A model generated the notes under the pieces. It saw only the letters and a list, made by a program, of their open reading frames with translations. It searched no databases and was not told where the DNA came from. DNA of 64,000 nt from the NCBI RefSeq assembly GCF_000953855.2, contig NZ_DF970270.1, positions 1 to 64,000 on the forward strand, in the 5' to 3' direction. The stretch's first letter is position 1. Each line of letters begins with the position of its first letter. Positions 2,306 through 8,239 of the stretch are shown piece by piece. Both the position numbers and the translations under genes were made by a program. The DNA is from Mizugakiibacter sediminis (GTDB taxonomy: Bacteria; Pseudomonadota; Gammaproteobacteria; Xanthomonadales; Rhodanobacteraceae).

Positions 2306-2361
2306 GGCTAACGCCTGAATTAAGCCGCGCCATTGGCGTCGGCTTGAATGAATTGTTAGGG
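2306..2361 (+). repeat. attC site 1 (integron cassette recombination site)
   Basis: The outer boxes are GGCTAAC (2306-2312) and GTTAGGG (2355-2361). The inner boxes are ATTAAGCCG (2319-2327) and CGGCTTGAAT (2340-2349), closed by a CGCC-ATT-GGCG hairpin. The two inner boxes pair except for one unpaired base, the strand-selecting feature of attC sites. Sequence and length (56 bp) resemble the attC of aadA-type cassettes. The last base of the right box departs from the consensus GTTRRRY. Confidence 0.85.
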
Positions 2362-2381
2362 CGCTGCCCGAGGAGAATGAA

Positions 2382-2732
2382 ATGCCGAACAACTGCCATT
2401 GCGATCAGATGGGACTGGGCGATCCGACGCAAACATGCGGCGACTGCCCGGAGGACTACAAGCGCGCACGTGTTTTCAGCCCAGGTAGTGCGATTGAGCA
2501 GGAGGTTCAGATGCTCCGTGAGCTTCTGGCCGACGCCGATCACGCGCTTGCTGACCTGGGAGCGTGCGACATCCCGGATTGCGATGAACCGAACTGCTTG
2601 AAGGTGCGGCAGCGGATCGCCGCCATTCGGCTGCAACGCGTTGTTAGACCGCAGACATTGAGGGCTAGACATGAAAGAAACGAAGTGGCAAAGGGCCGAA
2701 CGCTACGCGAAGCGCCTGATTGCCAATCTTGA
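2382..2732 (+). CDS. Cassette-borne hypothetical protein (cassette 1), reads through a half attC
   Basis: ATG 2382 follows AGGAG (2371-2375) with six bases of spacing, and lies 20 bp after attC 1 as expected for a gene cassette. The 116-aa product is cysteine-rich at its N-terminus (CHC at residues 5-7, then CGDC near residue 19) with a second pair (DCDEPNC) near residue 65, so it may bind zinc. The central part is a helix with MLRELLADAD. The last ~35 residues are encoded by the attC right half and the start of the next cassette, so the native C-terminus was probably shorter. Function unknown. Confidence 0.5.
   Translation: MPNNCHCDQMGLGDPTQTCGDCPEDYKRARVFSPGSAIEQEVQMLRELLADADHALADLGACDIPDCDEPNCLKVRQRIAAIRLQRVVRPQTLRARHERNEVAKGRTLREAPDCQS
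2628..2649 (+). repeat. attC right half only (site 2, degraded)
   Basis: CGGCTGCAAC (2628-2637) followed by GTTAGAC (2643-2649) matches the right half of attC site 4 (3252-3273) at 20 of 22 positions. No matching left half (xYYYAAC plus GTTxCAGCCG) is found upstream. The site therefore looks truncated, probably by a deletion or an in-frame fusion with the cassette 1 gene. Confidence 0.65.
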
Positions 2733-2955
2733 AGGCAACAACGGAACTCTTGGTGAGTTGAGTCACGAGCGTATTGCACAAGTTGCTTTCCGGGATGGCG
2801 TTGAAACTGGGCTACGGGATGCAAAGCGCTCATATGGTATGAGCCGGGCGACTGCGACAAAACTTCTTGCTCTCGCGCAAGAGCGGGCGATGCTGAAGAA
2901 CAAGCTGCGGTCTAACACCGAAGCTAAGCCGACCCGCGAAGCGGGTTCGGCTTGA
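2671..2955 (+). CDS. Cassette-borne hypothetical helical protein (cassette 2), 94 aa
   Basis: ATG 2671 lies 22 bp after the half attC and follows GAGGG. The product is highly charged and probably all-helical, with a possible helix-turn-helix segment around YGMSRATATKLLALAQ (residues 55-70). The stop codon lies inside the L' box of attC 3 (2953-2955), which is typical of integron cassettes, and the last 14 residues are attC-encoded. The base composition is visibly lower in GC than the flanking chromosome. No family recognised. Confidence 0.65.
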   Translation: MKETKWQRAERYAKRLIANLEGNNGTLGELSHERIAQVAFRDGVETGLRDAKRSYGMSRATATKLLALAQERAMLKNKLRSNTEAKPTREAGSA

Positions 2956-2969
2956 GCGCCTTGTTAGGC
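2910..2969 (+). repeat. attC site 3, complete, 60 bp
   Basis: Outer boxes GTCTAAC (2910-2916) and GTTAGGC (2963-2969) fit RYYYAAC and GTTRRRY exactly. Inner boxes GCTAAGCCGA (2923-2932) and TCGGCTTGAGC (2947-2957) pair with a single extrahelical base. A perfect CCCGC-GAA-GCGGG stem-loop sits between them (2933-2945). This is the best-formed attC in the array. Confidence 0.93.
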
Positions 2970-2996
2970 GTCACGCGACAACAAACGGAGAACGAC

Positions 2997-3212
2997 ATGC
3001 AACATCGTGAACCTTTTTGGCTGGTCTGGAATCCGCAGGGTTACAACCCGCAGCGCAAACACAACACCAAGGAAGGCGCGACACGCGAGGCCGAAAGGCT
3101 TGCGCGAGCAAATCCCGGACAGACCTTCATTGTCATGGAGAGCGTTTGCGCGCTGGTGGTGGACAACATCCAGCGCACCGACTTGCGTCCCGGCAATGAA
3201 CTGCCCTTCTGA
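2997..3212 (+). CDS. Cassette-borne phage-like small protein (cassette 3), 71 aa, LPF tail
   Basis: ATG 2997 follows ACGGAG at good spacing, 28 bp after attC 3. The 71-aa product starts with FWLVWNPQGYNP, has a middle segment TREAERLARANPGQTFIVME, and ends GNELPF. The W-NP...A-RLARxNPGxxFxV layout is one I associate with small unannotated phage proteins. The acidic-hydrophobic end resembles an SSB-type tip, as in the gene at 1937-2227. The stop immediately precedes attC 4, as expected in a compact cassette. Function unknown. Confidence 0.65.
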   Translation: MQHREPFWLVWNPQGYNPQRKHNTKEGATREAERLARANPGQTFIVMESVCALVVDNIQRTDLRPGNELPF

Positions 3213-3213
3213 C

Positions 3214-3273
3214 GCCTAACAACCAAGTTCAGCCGTGACGCGATGCGGCATCGGCTGCAACGCGTGGTTAGGC
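3214..3273 (+). repeat. attC site 4, complete, 60 bp
   Basis: Outer boxes GCCTAAC (3214-3220) and GTTAGGC (3267-3273) are perfect inverted repeats. Inner boxes GTTCAGCCG (3227-3235) and CGGCTGCAAC (3252-3261) pair with one extrahelical base. The central stem is weaker than in site 3. Confidence 0.93.
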
Positions 3274-3300
3274 ATCAATTTTGAAAGGATGGTGGACGGC

Positions 3301-3684
3301 ATGGAATTGGTACTGATTCGCGGGCTTCCCGGTAGCGGCAAGACGACTATGGCGCGCACGTTGGCGCTGGTTGGTTACGAACACCACGAAGCTGACCATT
3401 ACTTTGAGCGTGAAGGCGCTTACAAGTTTGACCCTTCCGAGTTGCCAAAGGCCCATGCCCAATGCTTGGAGCGCACCAAGGACAGCCTCACTCGCGGGGT
3501 CAGCTGCGTTGTAGCCAACACGTTTACGCGGCGATGGGAGATGCAGCCTTACTTGGATGCCGCTAAGGCTATCGGCGTTCCGGTGCGCGTGATTGAGGCG
3601 AAAGGTGAGTGGGAGAACTGCCACGGCGTGCCGGCTGATGCGATTGAGAGGATGCGGGAACGGTGGGAATCAGTTGATGCCTAA
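3301..3684 (+). CDS. P-loop kinase-like protein, N4BP2/AAA_33 type (cassette 4)
   Basis: The product has a Walker A motif at its N-terminus (GLPGSGKTTMAR, residues 8-19), an AANTF-like strand, and the C-terminal block NCHGVPADAIERMRERWE typical of small polynucleotide-kinase-like P-loop ATPases related to N4BP2. Such proteins phosphorylate nucleic-acid ends or other small substrates; the substrate here is unknown. An in-frame ATG at 3289 sits too close to AAAGG, so 3301 is preferred, giving 127 aa. The stop overlaps attC 5 (3682-3684 lies in its R'' box). This is the only cassette with a clear enzyme signature. Confidence 0.75.
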   Translation: MELVLIRGLPGSGKTTMARTLALVGYEHHEADHYFEREGAYKFDPSELPKAHAQCLERTKDSLTRGVSCVVANTFTRRWEMQPYLDAAKAIGVPVRVIEAKGEWENCHGVPADAIERMRERWESVDA

Positions 3685-3766
3685 CACCTGAGCTAACCCG
3701 CGCCGCCGTGAGCGCGTGATTTCACAGTGAACCCGAAGCGGCGTCGGGTTGAATGAACTGTTGGGC
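3679..3766 (+). repeat. attC site 5, complete, 88 bp
   Basis: Outer boxes GCCTAAC (3679-3685) and GTTGGGC (3760-3766) fit RYYYAAC and GTTRRRY. Inner boxes GCTAACCCG (3692-3700) and CGGGTTGAAT (3745-3754) are complementary apart from an extra base. A long variable loop stem begins CGCCGC (3701-3706) and returns GCGGCG (3738-3743). Confidence 0.9.
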
Positions 3767-3787
3767 GGCAACGATATGGAGATACGT

Positions 3788-4111
3788 ATGGGAACAGAAC
3801 ACACGCCAGGCCCGTGGCATCAGCTTGCTGATGGATTCATCTACGCGAAGGATGGCGGGCGCGTAGCCGACCCTAAGCCATGGTCACCGGCGCATAAGGC
3901 GCGCACAGACGAGACGGTAAAGGCCAATGCTCGATTAATCGCAGCGGCTCCAGATCTACTCGACGCACTGATCGACCTTTTGCACCAATCCAAGCTCTCG
4001 AAAGACGAGGGTGGGTGGGATTTTGAGCAGGCCGAAGAGGCAATCGCGAAAGCAACCGGCTTGACGCCTAACAAGCGTTATCCGCCGAATCCGCTGGATA
4101 CCACCGACTGA
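3788..4111 (+). CDS. HTPGPW-type phage-like protein (cassette 5)
   Basis: ATG 3788 is chosen over 3776 because GGAG (3778-3781) lies six bases upstream of it. The 107-aa product begins TEHTPGPWHQ and contains ANARLIAAAPDLLDAL, a signature shared by many small phage and prophage proteins of unknown function. The gene follows attC 5 at cassette-like spacing. It continues through an attC-type R'' box (GCCTAAC, 4066-4072) and ends 39 bp later, so its last ~15 residues are probably not native. It marks the right edge of the cassette array. Confidence 0.65.
   Translation: MGTEHTPGPWHQLADGFIYAKDGGRVADPKPWSPAHKARTDETVKANARLIAAAPDLLDALIDLLHQSKLSKDEGGWDFEQAEEAIAKATGLTPNKRYPPNPLDTTD
4066..4072 (+). repeat. 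attC remnant (left outer box only)
   Basis: GCCTAAC followed by AAG sits where the attC of cassette 5 should begin, but no L', R' or stem follows in the next 60 bases. This looks like an attC cut just inside its left end, and so like the junction between the cassette array and the phage backbone. A seven-base match alone is weak; the position relative to the gene is what supports it. Confidence 0.45.
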
Positions 4112-4997: not shown

Positions 4998-5300
4998 ATG
5001 AGCGACGGCCAGACCTGGTTCACCGTGAAGGAGGCAGCCGAATACTGCCGCTGCTCCGTGCGCGCCTTCTACCGTATGGGGATCGCCGCGCATGACTCCG
5101 GCGGCAGGAAGACCTATCATCGCGCGACCTTGGACGCAGCATTGCTCGCACGACCATGGCAAGGCTCTACAAGCGCGGCCCCTGCTACTACCTCGACTGG
5201 ATCGAGAACGGCGAGCGTTTCCGCCGGTCCCTTGGCAAGATTGGCGCCCGTGAGGCTGAGGCCGTACAAGCCGAAAAAGAAGCCGAACTGCGCGGCCTGA
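4998..5300 (+). CDS. xis: Excisionase-like small DNA-binding protein
   Basis: Residues 7-52 form a MerR/excisionase-type winged helix: WFTVKEAAEYCRCSVRAFYR, then GRKTYHRATLDAAL. Excisionases of this type direct the neighbouring tyrosine integrase towards excision. The gene lies directly upstream of the integrase and overlaps it by 145 bases in another frame. The last ~48 residues are low-complexity (A, T, S, P, R) because they are read out of frame from the integrase start. A transcriptional regulator of the integration module is the alternative. Confidence 0.7.
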   Translation: MSDGQTWFTVKEAAEYCRCSVRAFYRMGIAAHDSGGRKTYHRATLDAALLARPWQGSTSAAPATTSTGSRTASVSAGPLARLAPVRLRPYKPKKKPNCAA

Positions 5301-6145
5301 TCACGCCGACCCGTGGCGTCACCGTGGCGACCGTCATCGCGGACTATCTGCGCTGGTACGAACACGCCCGGCCCACCACCTACCGGCGCGCCCGCAGCGA
5401 CCTGCAAAAGTTTCTCGACGCCTTCGCGCCGCTTGCTGCCGAGGGGATCGACCCGAACCAGGTGGAGATGTGGGTGATTCGTCACGCCGCCCGTGGATCG
5501 GCACATAAGGCCGTCAAGCTCGCCAAGGCCGCCTTCAAGCGTGCGATGAAGGCACGTCCCGCACTGATCCAGCACAGCCCGCTGGCGCTCGTGAGCGTGT
5601 CCGAGCCGCCCGTGAGCCGCGCGCCCGACTACTACCGCCCCAAACAGTTGGAAGCCCTCTACAAGACCGCCAGAGGGCCGCTGTGGCGCTTCCTTGCCAA
5701 CACGGGGCTACGCAGGGGGGAGATAGCGAAAGCGCGGCGTAGCGACGTACGCGACGGCTCAATCTACGTGCAGAGCACTTCCGAGGGCAGGACGAAATCC
5801 GGGAAGTGGCGGATGGTGCCGCTGAACGCGGGCGCGAGGGCTGCGCTCAAGCGGCTTGGGAAGGATCGACTGGTAGAGGCCCACGCTGATACGCTGGGCG
5901 ACTGGTTCGATGAGGACCGTCGGGCGGCCAAGGTGGGCGGCTCGCTGCACTGGCTGCGACACACGTTCTGCACGGCGCTCGTGCAGTCAGGCGTGCCGCT
6001 GAACGTGGTCAAGAATTTGGCCGGACATAGCTCGATCAGCGTCACGGAACGCTACGCCCATCATGCGCCCGGGCACGGCGTGGACGCCGTGAAAATGCTT
6101 GCGAAGTGGCACAGAAAAAGGCACAGTGGCACCGCAAGTGATTGA
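5156..6145 (+). CDS. int: Phage-type tyrosine integrase
   Basis: This 329-aa site-specific recombinase has an N-terminal arm-type DNA-binding segment (KRGPCYYLDWIENGERFRRS) that phage and genomic-island integrases have and integron integrases lack. A SAM-like core-binding domain covers roughly residues 55-140. The catalytic domain shows TGLRRGE (first Arg), LHWLRHTF (His, Arg), LAGHSS (His) and TERYAHH (Tyr nucleophile). The stop codon ends one base before tRNA-Arg, the usual kind of integration target. It presumably integrates and excises the element that fills the left of the window; the other attachment site is outside. Confidence 0.95.
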   Translation: MARLYKRGPCYYLDWIENGERFRRSLGKIGAREAEAVQAEKEAELRGLITPTRGVTVATVIADYLRWYEHARPTTYRRARSDLQKFLDAFAPLAAEGIDPNQVEMWVIRHAARGSAHKAVKLAKAAFKRAMKARPALIQHSPLALVSVSEPPVSRAPDYYRPKQLEALYKTARGPLWRFLANTGLRRGEIAKARRSDVRDGSIYVQSTSEGRTKSGKWRMVPLNAGARAALKRLGKDRLVEAHADTLGDWFDEDRRAAKVGGSLHWLRHTFCTALVQSGVPLNVVKNLAGHSSISVTERYAHHAPGHGVDAVKMLAKWHRKRHSGTASD

Positions 6146-6222
6146 GGCCCCGTAGCTCAGCTGGATAGAGCGTCCCCCTCCTAAGGGGAAGGTCGCACGT
6201 TCGAATCGTGTCGGGGCCGCCA
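6146..6222 (+). tRNA. tRNA-Arg (anticodon CCU)
   Basis: The gene folds as a 77-nt cloverleaf with acceptor stem GGCCCCG/CGGGGCC, anticodon stem TCCCC/GGGGA, loop CTCCTAA giving anticodon CCU, T loop TTCGAAT, and encoded CCA. Its 5' end directly follows the integrase stop codon, so its promoter must lie inside the integrase gene. A weak candidate is TTGCGA (6099-6104) with CACAGT (6122-6127), 17 bases apart. Confidence 0.95.
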
Positions 6223-6317: not shown

Positions 6318-7853
6318 ATGTCGCAGCAGATCCTCCAGGCGCTCGGCCTCGCCGAGACCAACTCCGGCACCTACCTCGGCAACGGCGAGTGGTCGAAGAC
6401 CACCGACGCCGGCGTGCTCGCGCCGGTCAATCCGGCCACCGACCAGGTGATCGCCAGGGTGTACGCGAGCTCCGCCGCCGATTACGAGACGATCGTCCGG
6501 CGCGCCCAGGAGGCGTTCAAGGTCTGGCGCGCGACGCCCGCGCCGAAGCGCGGCGAGGCGGTGCGCCAGTGCGGCGAGGCGCTGCGCCGGCACAAGGACG
6601 CGCTCGGTTCGCTGGTCGCGCTGGAGATGGGCAAGATCAAGCCGGAAGGCGACGGCGAAGTGCAGGAGATGATCGACATCGCCGACTTCGCCGTCGGCCA
6701 GAGCCGCATGCTGTACGGCTACAGCATGCACTCCGAGCGTCCGGGCCACCGCATGTACGAGCAGTGGCACCCGCTCGGCCTGGTCGGCATCATTTCCGCG
6801 TTCAATTTCCCGGTCGCGGTGTGGGCCTGGAACAGCTTCATCGCCGCGATCTGCGGCGATATCAGCATCTGGAAGCCGTCGCCGAAGGTGCCGCTGTCGG
6901 CGATCGCGGCGATGAAGATCTGCAACGAGGCGCTGCGCGCCGGCGGCTTCCCCGACATCTTCTTCCTGTTCAACGACGCCGGCACCGAGCTGGCGGCGAA
7001 GTTCGTCGACGACCACCGCATCCCGCTGATCAGCTTCACCGGCTCCACCGCGGTCGGCCGCCAGGTCGGCGTGCGCGTGGCGCAGCGCATGGGCCGTTCG
7101 CTGCTGGAGCTGGGGGGCAACAACGCGATCATCCTCGACGAGAGCGCCGACCTGAAGCTGGCGATCCCGGCGATCGTGTTCGGCGCGATCGGCACCGCCG
7201 GCCAGCGCTGCACGACCACGCGCCGCCTGATCGTGCACGAAGCCATCGCCGCCGCGGTGGTGGAGAAGCTCGCCGCCGCGTACAAGCAGGTGGAGGCGAG
7301 GATCGGCGATCCCACGGACCCGAAGACGCTGATGGGCCCGCTGACCGACAAGGGCGCGGTGCAGCGCTACCTCGCCGCCATCGAGAAGGCCAAGGCCGCG
7401 GGCGGCACCATCGTCACCGGCGGCAAGGCGCTGACCGACCGCCCGGGCAACTTCGTGCTGCCGACCATCGTCACCGGTCTGAAGAATTCCGCCGAGGTGG
7501 TGCAGACGGAAACCTTCGCGCCGATCCTGTACGTGCTGCCGTTCAAGACGCTGGACGAGGCGATCGAGATGCAGAACGCCGTGCCGCAGGGCCTGTCCTC
7601 GGCGATCTTCACGCAGAGCGTGAAGGCCTCCGAACGTTTCCTGTCGGCGGCCGGCTCCGACTGCGGCATCGCCAACGTCAACATCGGCACCTCCGGCGCC
7701 GAGATCGGCGGCGCGTTCGGCGGCGAGAAGGACACCGGCGGCGGCCGCGAGTCCGGCTCGGACGCGTGGAAGGCGTACATGCGCCGGCAGACCAACACCA
7801 TCAACTGGTCGGACGCGCTGCCGCTGGCGCAGGGCATCAAGTTCGATCTTTGA
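6318..7853 (+). CDS. amaB: ALDH7-type aldehyde dehydrogenase (piperideine-6-carboxylate / aminoadipate semialdehyde dehydrogenase)
   Basis: The 511-aa NAD(P)-dependent aldehyde dehydrogenase has the ALDH7 hallmarks: [14 protein letters not shown], the LLELGGNNA block with general-base Glu264, and the nucleophile Cys298 in [14 protein letters not shown]7 enzymes oxidise L-piperideine-6-carboxylate (alpha-aminoadipate semialdehyde) to alpha-aminoadipate in lysine breakdown. A ribosome binding site, GCAGGAG, precedes ATG 6318. It is not in an operon with other lysine genes here, although glutaryl-CoA dehydrogenase lies at 19984-21153. Oxidation of another semialdehyde is possible; family assignment is firm, substrate less so. 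Confidence 0.88.
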
Positions 7854-7854
7854 C

Positions 7855-7914
7855 GGGACTCGGGACTCGGGACGAGCGAAACATCCGGCGTCATTCCCGC
7901 TTGCGCGGATGACG
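7855..7914. repeat. Composite intergenic repeat: GGGACTC tandem plus palindrome
   Basis: Two and a half copies of GGGACTC (7855-7873) are followed by an imperfect palindrome CGTCATTCCCGC (7889-7900) and GCGCGGATGACG (7903-7914). The same two-part structure appears at 58854-58944. It has the look of a dispersed REP-like element and could also act as a weak terminator after the aldehyde dehydrogenase. Confidence 0.7.
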
Positions 7915-7945
7915 ACGCTGCGATCGCTCCGGAGAGGACACCGCC

Positions 7946-8239
7946 ATGAGCACGCCACTGCCTGCACGCCGCACCAGCAGCCTCGCCATCATCAGCCTGG
8001 TGTTCGGCGTGCTGTGCTGGTTCGCGCTGCCGGTGATCGGCGCGCTGATCGCCGTGGTCTGCGGGCACATGGCGCGCGGCGAGATCCGGCAGAGCCGCGG
8101 CGAGCTGGACGGCGACGGCATGGCGGTCGCCGGCCTGGTGCTGGGCTGGCTGCATCTGGCCGCGGCGATCCTGGCCGTGATCTCGGCCTTCCTGTTCTTC
8201 GGCGGCCTGCTGTGGTTCGCGCACTTCTTCAACGGTTGA
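7946..8239 (+). CDS. DUF4190 small membrane protein
   Basis: The 97-aa protein has two hydrophobic membrane segments, about residues 12-38 and 62-94, separated by the conserved loop [29 protein letters not shown] (only part of which is diagnostic: GHxAxGxIxxS, then GxGxAxAGLxLG). This is the DUF4190 pattern, found in small inner-membrane proteins of unknown function. It sits eight bases upstream of pyrD and may be cotranscribed with it. Confidence 0.75.

Follow-up and report, generated by a model that had tools for sequence, protein, structure and literature searches.

An integron-type cassette array with reversed genes in a prophage of Mizugakiibacter sediminis

Positions 2306 to 4072 of the stretch of Mizugakiibacter sediminis DNA analysed in this work (64,000 nucleotides, hereafter the window) hold an integron-type gene cassette array that lies inside a prophage and has no integron integrase gene (intI, encoding IntI) nearby. 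This much had been claimed by the original prediction, and it stands. The same prediction took the genes to be arranged as in integrons, which is wrong as far as their orientation is concerned: all five are reversed relative to their attC sites. From the comparisons laid out below, the region seems to be the cassette array of a phage-adapted integron with inverted cassettes, whose integrase gene is missing here, a reading to which we give a probability of about 0.8. A wider claim, for which the odds look only somewhat better than even, would be that phages own a distinct class of integron, with its own IntI lineage, attI at the 3′ end of one of their operons, and a separate pool of cassettes that are traded between unrelated phages, face the integrase and serve largely in counter-defence; the window array would then be one that has lost its integrase.

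Sites of the array and orientation of its genes

The sites of the array are attC, with outer boxes of RYYYAAC/GTTRRRY type (that of site 1, GGCTAAC, is one base off this consensus), paired inner boxes, a variable central stem and extrahelical bases on one side only. The four complete sites share one common fold, in which the outer boxes form 7 pairs, the inner stem 9 pairs with one extrahelical base, and the central stem 6 pairs with a second extrahelical base beside it. In this fold 95% of the cells pair, as opposed to 22-41% after a shift of the partners by 1-3 columns, and 7 pairs are altered on both sides, as opposed to at most 1 after the shift. Two covariance models were used in the searches: R1, built from the four window sites, and R2, derived from 39 attC sites that adjoin intact intI in chromosomes and free of any window sequence, although these 39 sites had themselves been gathered with R1. 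On the + strand, which is the canonical bottom strand of attC, R2 matches site 1 at the distal (tail) end of the array (2306-2361; 65.7 bits, E 5.1e-15), site 3, which belongs to cassette c3 (2910-2969; 62.7 bits, E 3.2e-14), site 4, which belongs to c4 (3214-3273; 52.1 bits, E 2.3e-11), and site 5, which has a long central stem and belongs to c5 (3679-3766; 52.8 bits, E 1.4e-11). The next best score in the 64 kb is 16.1 bits, and the reverse strand of the window stays below 15 bits, against 52-66 on the + strand. R1, scanned over the same 64 kb, gives no further convincing site besides its own four, and in genomes of the same family it picks up tens of sites directly beside intact intI. The right half of another site lies at 2628-2649 (+), where the inner box and GTTAGAC remain and the left half is lost; it is marked by direct repeat D3 and inverted repeat I3. 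All coordinates of the original prediction were correct, and its identification of the four complete sites as attC is borne out by the covariance model (E 5e-15 to 2e-11). With four same-strand attC in 1.5 kb and no IntI above the cut-off anywhere in the genome, the region is formally a cluster of attC sites lacking an integron integrase (CALIN).

In integrons, the main gene-capture platform of Gram-negative bacteria, intI and the cassette genes point away from each other, and the bottom strand of attC is the strand of intI, opposite to the genes. The attC sites of the window match on the + strand, the strand of all five genes, so that these lie on the attC bottom strand, whereas those of a canonical array lie on the top strand and point away from attI and intI. 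The frequency of this reversal was examined by calling the strand of each gene from the longest open reading frame (ORF) between neighbouring sites, the IMG/VR contigs without IntI being retrieved with a strand-neutral attC pattern. In chromosomes, 130 cassettes are canonical and 5 inverted, with 64 against 1 in the intI-linked arrays of the host family, 29 against 0 in its chromosomal CALINs, and 37 against 4 in chromosomal integrons of other families. In phages the balance is turned: inverted cassettes outnumber canonical ones by 36 to 12 in IMG/VR phage contigs without IntI and by 18 to 6 in the arrays of a phage IntI clade described below (Fisher tests, 4e-22 and 2e-14, respectively). A sharper rule, which requires a start codon near the site plus a Shine-Dalgarno motif, yields 37 inverted to 1 canonical in phages, 26 to 0 in the phage IntI clade, and 2 to 32 in chromosomes, with 3/3 inverted in the window.

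Such a reversal could be an artefact, arising from a misreading of either attC polarity or the coding strand; long antisense ORFs do occur in GC-rich DNA, and many phage cassettes are uncallable by length (13/61 in contigs without IntI and 30/54 in the IntI clade). We regard this as very improbable. The polarity is fixed by intI-linked sites, 131 of the 133 hits in IntI-bearing viral loci being on the intI strand and the hits of chromosomal integrons likewise, and the scores of the two window strands given above are far apart. The coding strand is attested by protein-family matches, which fall on the inverted strand for c3, c4 and c5 as well as for the cassette methyltransferases of the phage contigs L087, L168 and L182 and the PAPS-reductase/SspD-like genes of L168 and L171. 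Substitutions, too, accumulate at the third codon position of the inverted strand, namely 41/57 for c4 between L109 and L110, 96/145 for the methyltransferase shared by L087 and L098, and 48/65 for the c5-like gene of L099 and L081, in agreement with the Shine-Dalgarno test. A strand call by codon usage, with host genes as the training set, did not work for cassettes of low GC and was given up for these tests and ORF length.

Cassette units and their movement between phages

On the + strand the cassette boundaries fall within the left-hand box, between RYYYAA and C, at 2312, 2916, 3220, 3685 and 4071/4072. The unit of c3 (2916-3219), mobile and carrying a gene for 71 amino acids (2997-3212) distantly related to DUF2188 and phrog_17352, aligns from end to end (304/304 nt, 94.7% identity) with positions 6674-6977 of the phage contig L072, where the gene before the unit and the attC and gene after it are all unrelated; both ends of the shared unit lie at the integrase cut point. 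The attC that moves with c3 is the one at its 5′ side, the interior of which is 87% identical, as against 51% for the next attC. In its central stem both arms have changed, from ACCCGC/GCGGGT to AGTGGC/GCCACT, so that the hairpin has been kept. The c4 unit (3220-3684), also mobile, aligns over its whole length with L109 (74.7%), where it is the first cassette at the head, and with L110 by its gene only (77.6%), the protein identity being 82-83%; this gene (3301-3684, 127 amino acids) encodes a P-loop protein of the AAA_33, polynucleotide-kinase-like type (Pfam AAA_33 E 4.1e-16; phrog_2071 E 6e-32), and its stop codon TAA falls within the next core box. The first cassette at the head of the window array is c5 (3685-4071), a mobile unit delimited by core boxes, with a gene for 107 amino acids (3788-4111) that matches phrog_1273 (E 5.7e-20); its relatives in L099 and L081 are 399-nt units that correspond end to end (399/399) and have 5′-side attC sites 98% identical to each other. 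In a chromosomal control pair (L137/L136) the shared unit aligns 477/477 and breaks at the same box with its genes canonical, meaning that both kinds of array use the same chemistry and differ only in the direction of the genes.

Related phages thus differ cassette by cassette, with breakpoints at the core box and no fixed block; the prophage of genome G052 whose RecT is most similar (76%) to that of the window prophage lacks attC in the 16 kb around this gene. The original prediction was to be abandoned if a covariance model found no attC in the region, or if related phages always carried genes and repeats as one fixed block. The model does find attC and the block is not fixed, so neither ground for abandoning it holds.

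The two remaining genes form, in integrase terms, a single unit (2312-2915), as judged from core boxes, end complementarity and the boundary rule drawn from the shared cassettes. The half site at 2628-2649 marks the fusion of two former cassettes within it, and c2 still has matching ends (GTTAGACCGCAG and CTGCGGTCTAAC, repeat I3). Pfam and PHROG searches with the ORFs place neither c1 (2382-2732, 116 amino acids, with the Shine-Dalgarno motif GAGGAG) nor c2 (2671-2955, 94 amino acids) in a known family. Cassette ends are complementary over 12-16 nt at 2639-2654/2905-2920, 2961-2973/3210-3222 and 3267-3278/3674-3685, that is, beyond the 7-bp core, and a circular form would therefore carry an extended attC stem.

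The array could also be a piece of an ordinary chromosomal cassette array, caught by a phage by chance and now a passive CALIN. The host family is rich in integrons (a full-scoring IntI is found in 110/233 of its genomes), the window sites are of the same type as the chromosomal ones, and integron capture by Vibrio phages is published (Qi et al. 2023, PMC9892861). This origin is nonetheless improbable, since all five window genes are reversed, as opposed to 5/135 callable chromosomal cassettes, and since the cassettes have their relatives in phages: c3 recurs in phage contigs at 92% protein identity, and c4, which phage arrays carry at 82-83%, has no counterpart in 229 other family genomes save for one 26% partial match, and only distant ones among 84,980 species genomes (44-45% over the whole protein at best). 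Another way to account for the exchanges is that the attC-like repeats are now mere short homologies and that the RecT annealase, not IntI, shuffles the modules. The array does stand directly behind RecT and a gene resembling single-strand-binding protein (SSB), in L087 an array stands behind RecT, an exonuclease and SSB, and the part of the window prophage that is seen holds no IntI. Annealing of homologies, though, would hardly end the c3 unit precisely at the IntI cut point rather than randomly within the 60-bp sites, and it has no need of the two-arm change of the central stem or of the strand-specific extrahelical bases that have been kept; several phages, moreover, retain intI and attI at the head. 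We consider RecT shuffling slightly less probable still than chance capture, and exchange of cassettes by an IntI remains the preferred explanation.

The array head and the IntI of phages

The lone core box GCCTAAC at 4066-4072 (+), cut between its last A and C, had been taken for a terminal remnant. It is instead the leading core box, or head, of the array: lone boxes also head the arrays of L109 and L110, and in phages such as L086, L168, L171 and L182 the corresponding place has attI and intI. The idea that it is a decayed attC was dropped once the heads of L086, L109 and L110 had been compared. In L086, a contig with tail genes, an inverted array ends in GCCCTAAC, followed by a spacer of about 75 bp and then by the start of an IntI gene, of which the first ~95 codons are fused to other sequence and run co-directionally with the cassettes; a search for close relatives of this IntI fragment returned only itself. 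In L168, L171 and L182 the intI at the head is intact and is followed by a phage integrase, with a phage primase in between in L168. The order in the window (array, helix-turn-helix gene, phage integrase) is the same as in those phages, minus intI. The complete integron, with intI and attI beside the array, is thus present in L168, L171 and L182, truncated in L086 and absent from the window, where 4066-4072 would be the head at which new cassettes enter and intI would have been lost or never present.

The cargo of the related arrays includes DNA methyltransferases and Dnd/Ssp-like enzymes. SspD/DndC-like genes of the PAPS reductase family are the head cassettes beside intI in L168 (4917-5843) and L171 (3718-4479), and in L072, whose inverted array also contains c3, the gene nearest the head (7418-8038) is likely a Mom-like DNA modification gene. 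This cargo, and with it the polynucleotide-kinase-like c4, probably serves phage-host conflict, be it by DNA modification, defence or counter-defence.

At least 142 IMG/VR contigs encode a relative of IntI, of which 80 were kept for a tree that also included 30 IntI from the host family. In this tree 32 IntI of viral contigs form one clade (support 100/99), and no bacterial sequence joins it (SH-aLRT 98) once the 30 closest IntI from bacterial genomes, drawn from 398 genomes of the phylum, are included; the closest bacterial identity to the IntI of L168 is 64%. The viral contigs L165 and L166 group with the chromosomal set, so that capture between chromosome and phage (unless the contigs are mis-called) also occurs, and the array is canonical in the only contig, L094/L165, that combines a long array with an IntI of clearly chromosomal type. 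The phrog_9 large terminase is matched in 8 of 24 viral IntI-bearing contigs tested, and the same terminase family is found on contig C105 of the host genome.

How such an array might work can be proposed from these comparisons. An IntI, supplied by the phage itself, by a coinfecting phage or by the host, would recombine the folded single bottom strand, which here is the gene-sense strand, and new cassettes would be inserted at the head (4071/4072), where the phage operon has its 3′ end. The cassette genes would be read from an upstream phage promoter on the RecT-SSB side, as an early operon reading through the array, and not from the integron's Pc. If so, only cassettes with reversed genes would be useful to the phage; the gene of a canonical cassette placed at the head would run antisense to the operon, and this would account for phages keeping reversed cassettes in a pool of their own. 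A simple scan from RecT to the end of the array gave no promoter-like site, which is in keeping with read-through and no proof of it.

Several observations weigh against the interpretation as a phage-adapted integron. No integron integrase of the prophage's own is found in the 6.1 kb seen, the contig starting at base 1, and the predicted empty site, with its flanks joined (GCGGGCTAA directly to CAAGCGTTATCC), is found neither in the compared loci nor in phage records. Neither c1 nor c2 has relatives: among viral contigs c1 has no match, and those of c2 are restricted to the end of its reading frame that attC encodes. By ORF length, roughly one in four callable phage cassettes is canonical; the pool is therefore impure, and the share of uncallable cassettes given above also counts here. 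Finally, the IMG/VR contigs are fragments whose viral status is assigned by software, and bacterial IntI were sampled from about 630 genomes.

The prophage, its host and other integrons

The array had been located between a phage annealase region and a phage integrase, and this is indeed its position. On its 5′ side lie the early phage gene for a RecT/Bet-type single-strand annealing protein (1089-1940, +; Pfam RecT E 2.7e-23, phrog_252 E 7.1e-67) and a gene for a small SSB-like protein (1937-2227, +), so called from its position behind RecT and a weak match to phrog_378 (E 0.09); an SSB-like gene also stands upstream of the array in L087. On the other side follow a helix-turn-helix protein, excisionase-like by position (4998-5300, +; Pfam HTH_17 E 5.8e-5), and a phage tyrosine integrase (5156-6145, +; Pfam PF00589, phrog_1 E 1.2e-49), which scores far under the IntI cut-off and is not an IntI. 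The integrase gene adjoins a tRNA-Arg(CCT) gene (6146-6222), the first 43 nt of which (6146-6188, +) are the attachment core. A copy 98% identical to it lies at the other end of the prophage (C108, 13914-13956), bordering a lambda-like tail module with major tail, tape measure and minor tail proteins and fiber J. As the core comprises the 5′ half of the tRNA, including the anticodon loop, it is from the 5′ side that the tRNA gene is restored. With attachment repeats at both ends, integrase, RecT and tail genes, the element around the array is a true prophage. The window starts with the first base of its contig, so the central part of the prophage lies on other contigs, and C105, with its terminase and portal genes, probably is that part. 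The contig start (1-70) has short direct repeats of CGGCTCGGCCAGCGTCAGGGCCTG type, which may be why the assembly broke off within the prophage. When the first 6 kb are compared with phage records by BLASTN, the matches fall chiefly in the RecT gene, and Rfam at gathering thresholds finds nothing in the window beyond tRNAs.

Of the chromosomal integron suspected in the same genome, only remnants exist. A decayed C-terminus of an integron integrase is found at the start of another contig (C79, 253-423), beside a dinG-like helicase gene, and a few attC sites are scattered away from the prophage, on C36 (L104, 280-1714, minus strand) and C92 (L105, 2718 and 7419), but there is no intact integron. 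In the sister species G001 the integrase is complete, whereas the chromosomal integron of the host has lost its own. Within genome G030, two distant integron loci (L130 and L129) have in common a cassette of 372 bp and another stretch of 1,224 bp, in opposite sense and at 100% identity, a pattern that points to recent movement within the chromosome.

Compared with the sedentary chromosomal integrons of the host family (cf. the Xanthomonas integrons of PMC12444791), the window array has the same attC fold, lengths and extrahelical bases, and the same polarity of attC to intI applies; it differs in that their genes are on the attC top strand and directed away from intI (130 vs 5), their intI is opposite to the genes, and their setting is chromosomal. 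With the IMG/VR phages L168, L171, L182 and L086 it shares inverted cassettes, a position near the phage integrase, and methyltransferase and Ssp/Dnd-like cargo; the difference is that these have retained attI and intI (truncated in L086), which the window array lost or never had. An array in a phage had been thought unusual, yet it is not new in itself: Qi et al. 2023 (PMC9892861) report 3 integrons, one In0 and 17 CALINs from 10,705 phage genomes, and an assay in which IntI1 recombined phage attC. Those elements resemble the window in having attC arrays in phages, with or without integrase, and methyltransferase cargo. Their layout is called typical of bacterial arrays in that paper, which, as far as it was consulted, mentions no inverted class, no phage IntI clade and no exchange of cassettes between phages. 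By the covariance model used here their phage TJE1 is canonical (one weak hit), and the attC polarity of PH101 could not be called because its extrahelical bases are ambiguous. A literature search, which covered neither subscription papers nor preprints, gave no report of inverted phage cassettes or of a phage IntI clade.

Reversed cassettes have a practical side, since pairs of a phage gene and an attC, read in the usual sense during annotation, would be cut at the wrong box. Their polarity also bears on the open question of the origin of cassettes: as the attC is here at the 5′ end of the gene, sites and genes can be joined in both polarities, and it would be outside transcription, through its direction, that decides which of the two stays. 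Chromosomal and mobile integrons are seen as libraries of anti-phage defence in recent papers cited in PMC12444791. If the wider claim is true, a class of phage integrons that have reversed cassettes and an integrase lineage of their own would form the opposing party in this defence contest, and a new route of cassette flow. Phages, in other words, seem to operate, and exchange among themselves, their own form of a system that is known above all for the spread of antibiotic resistance.

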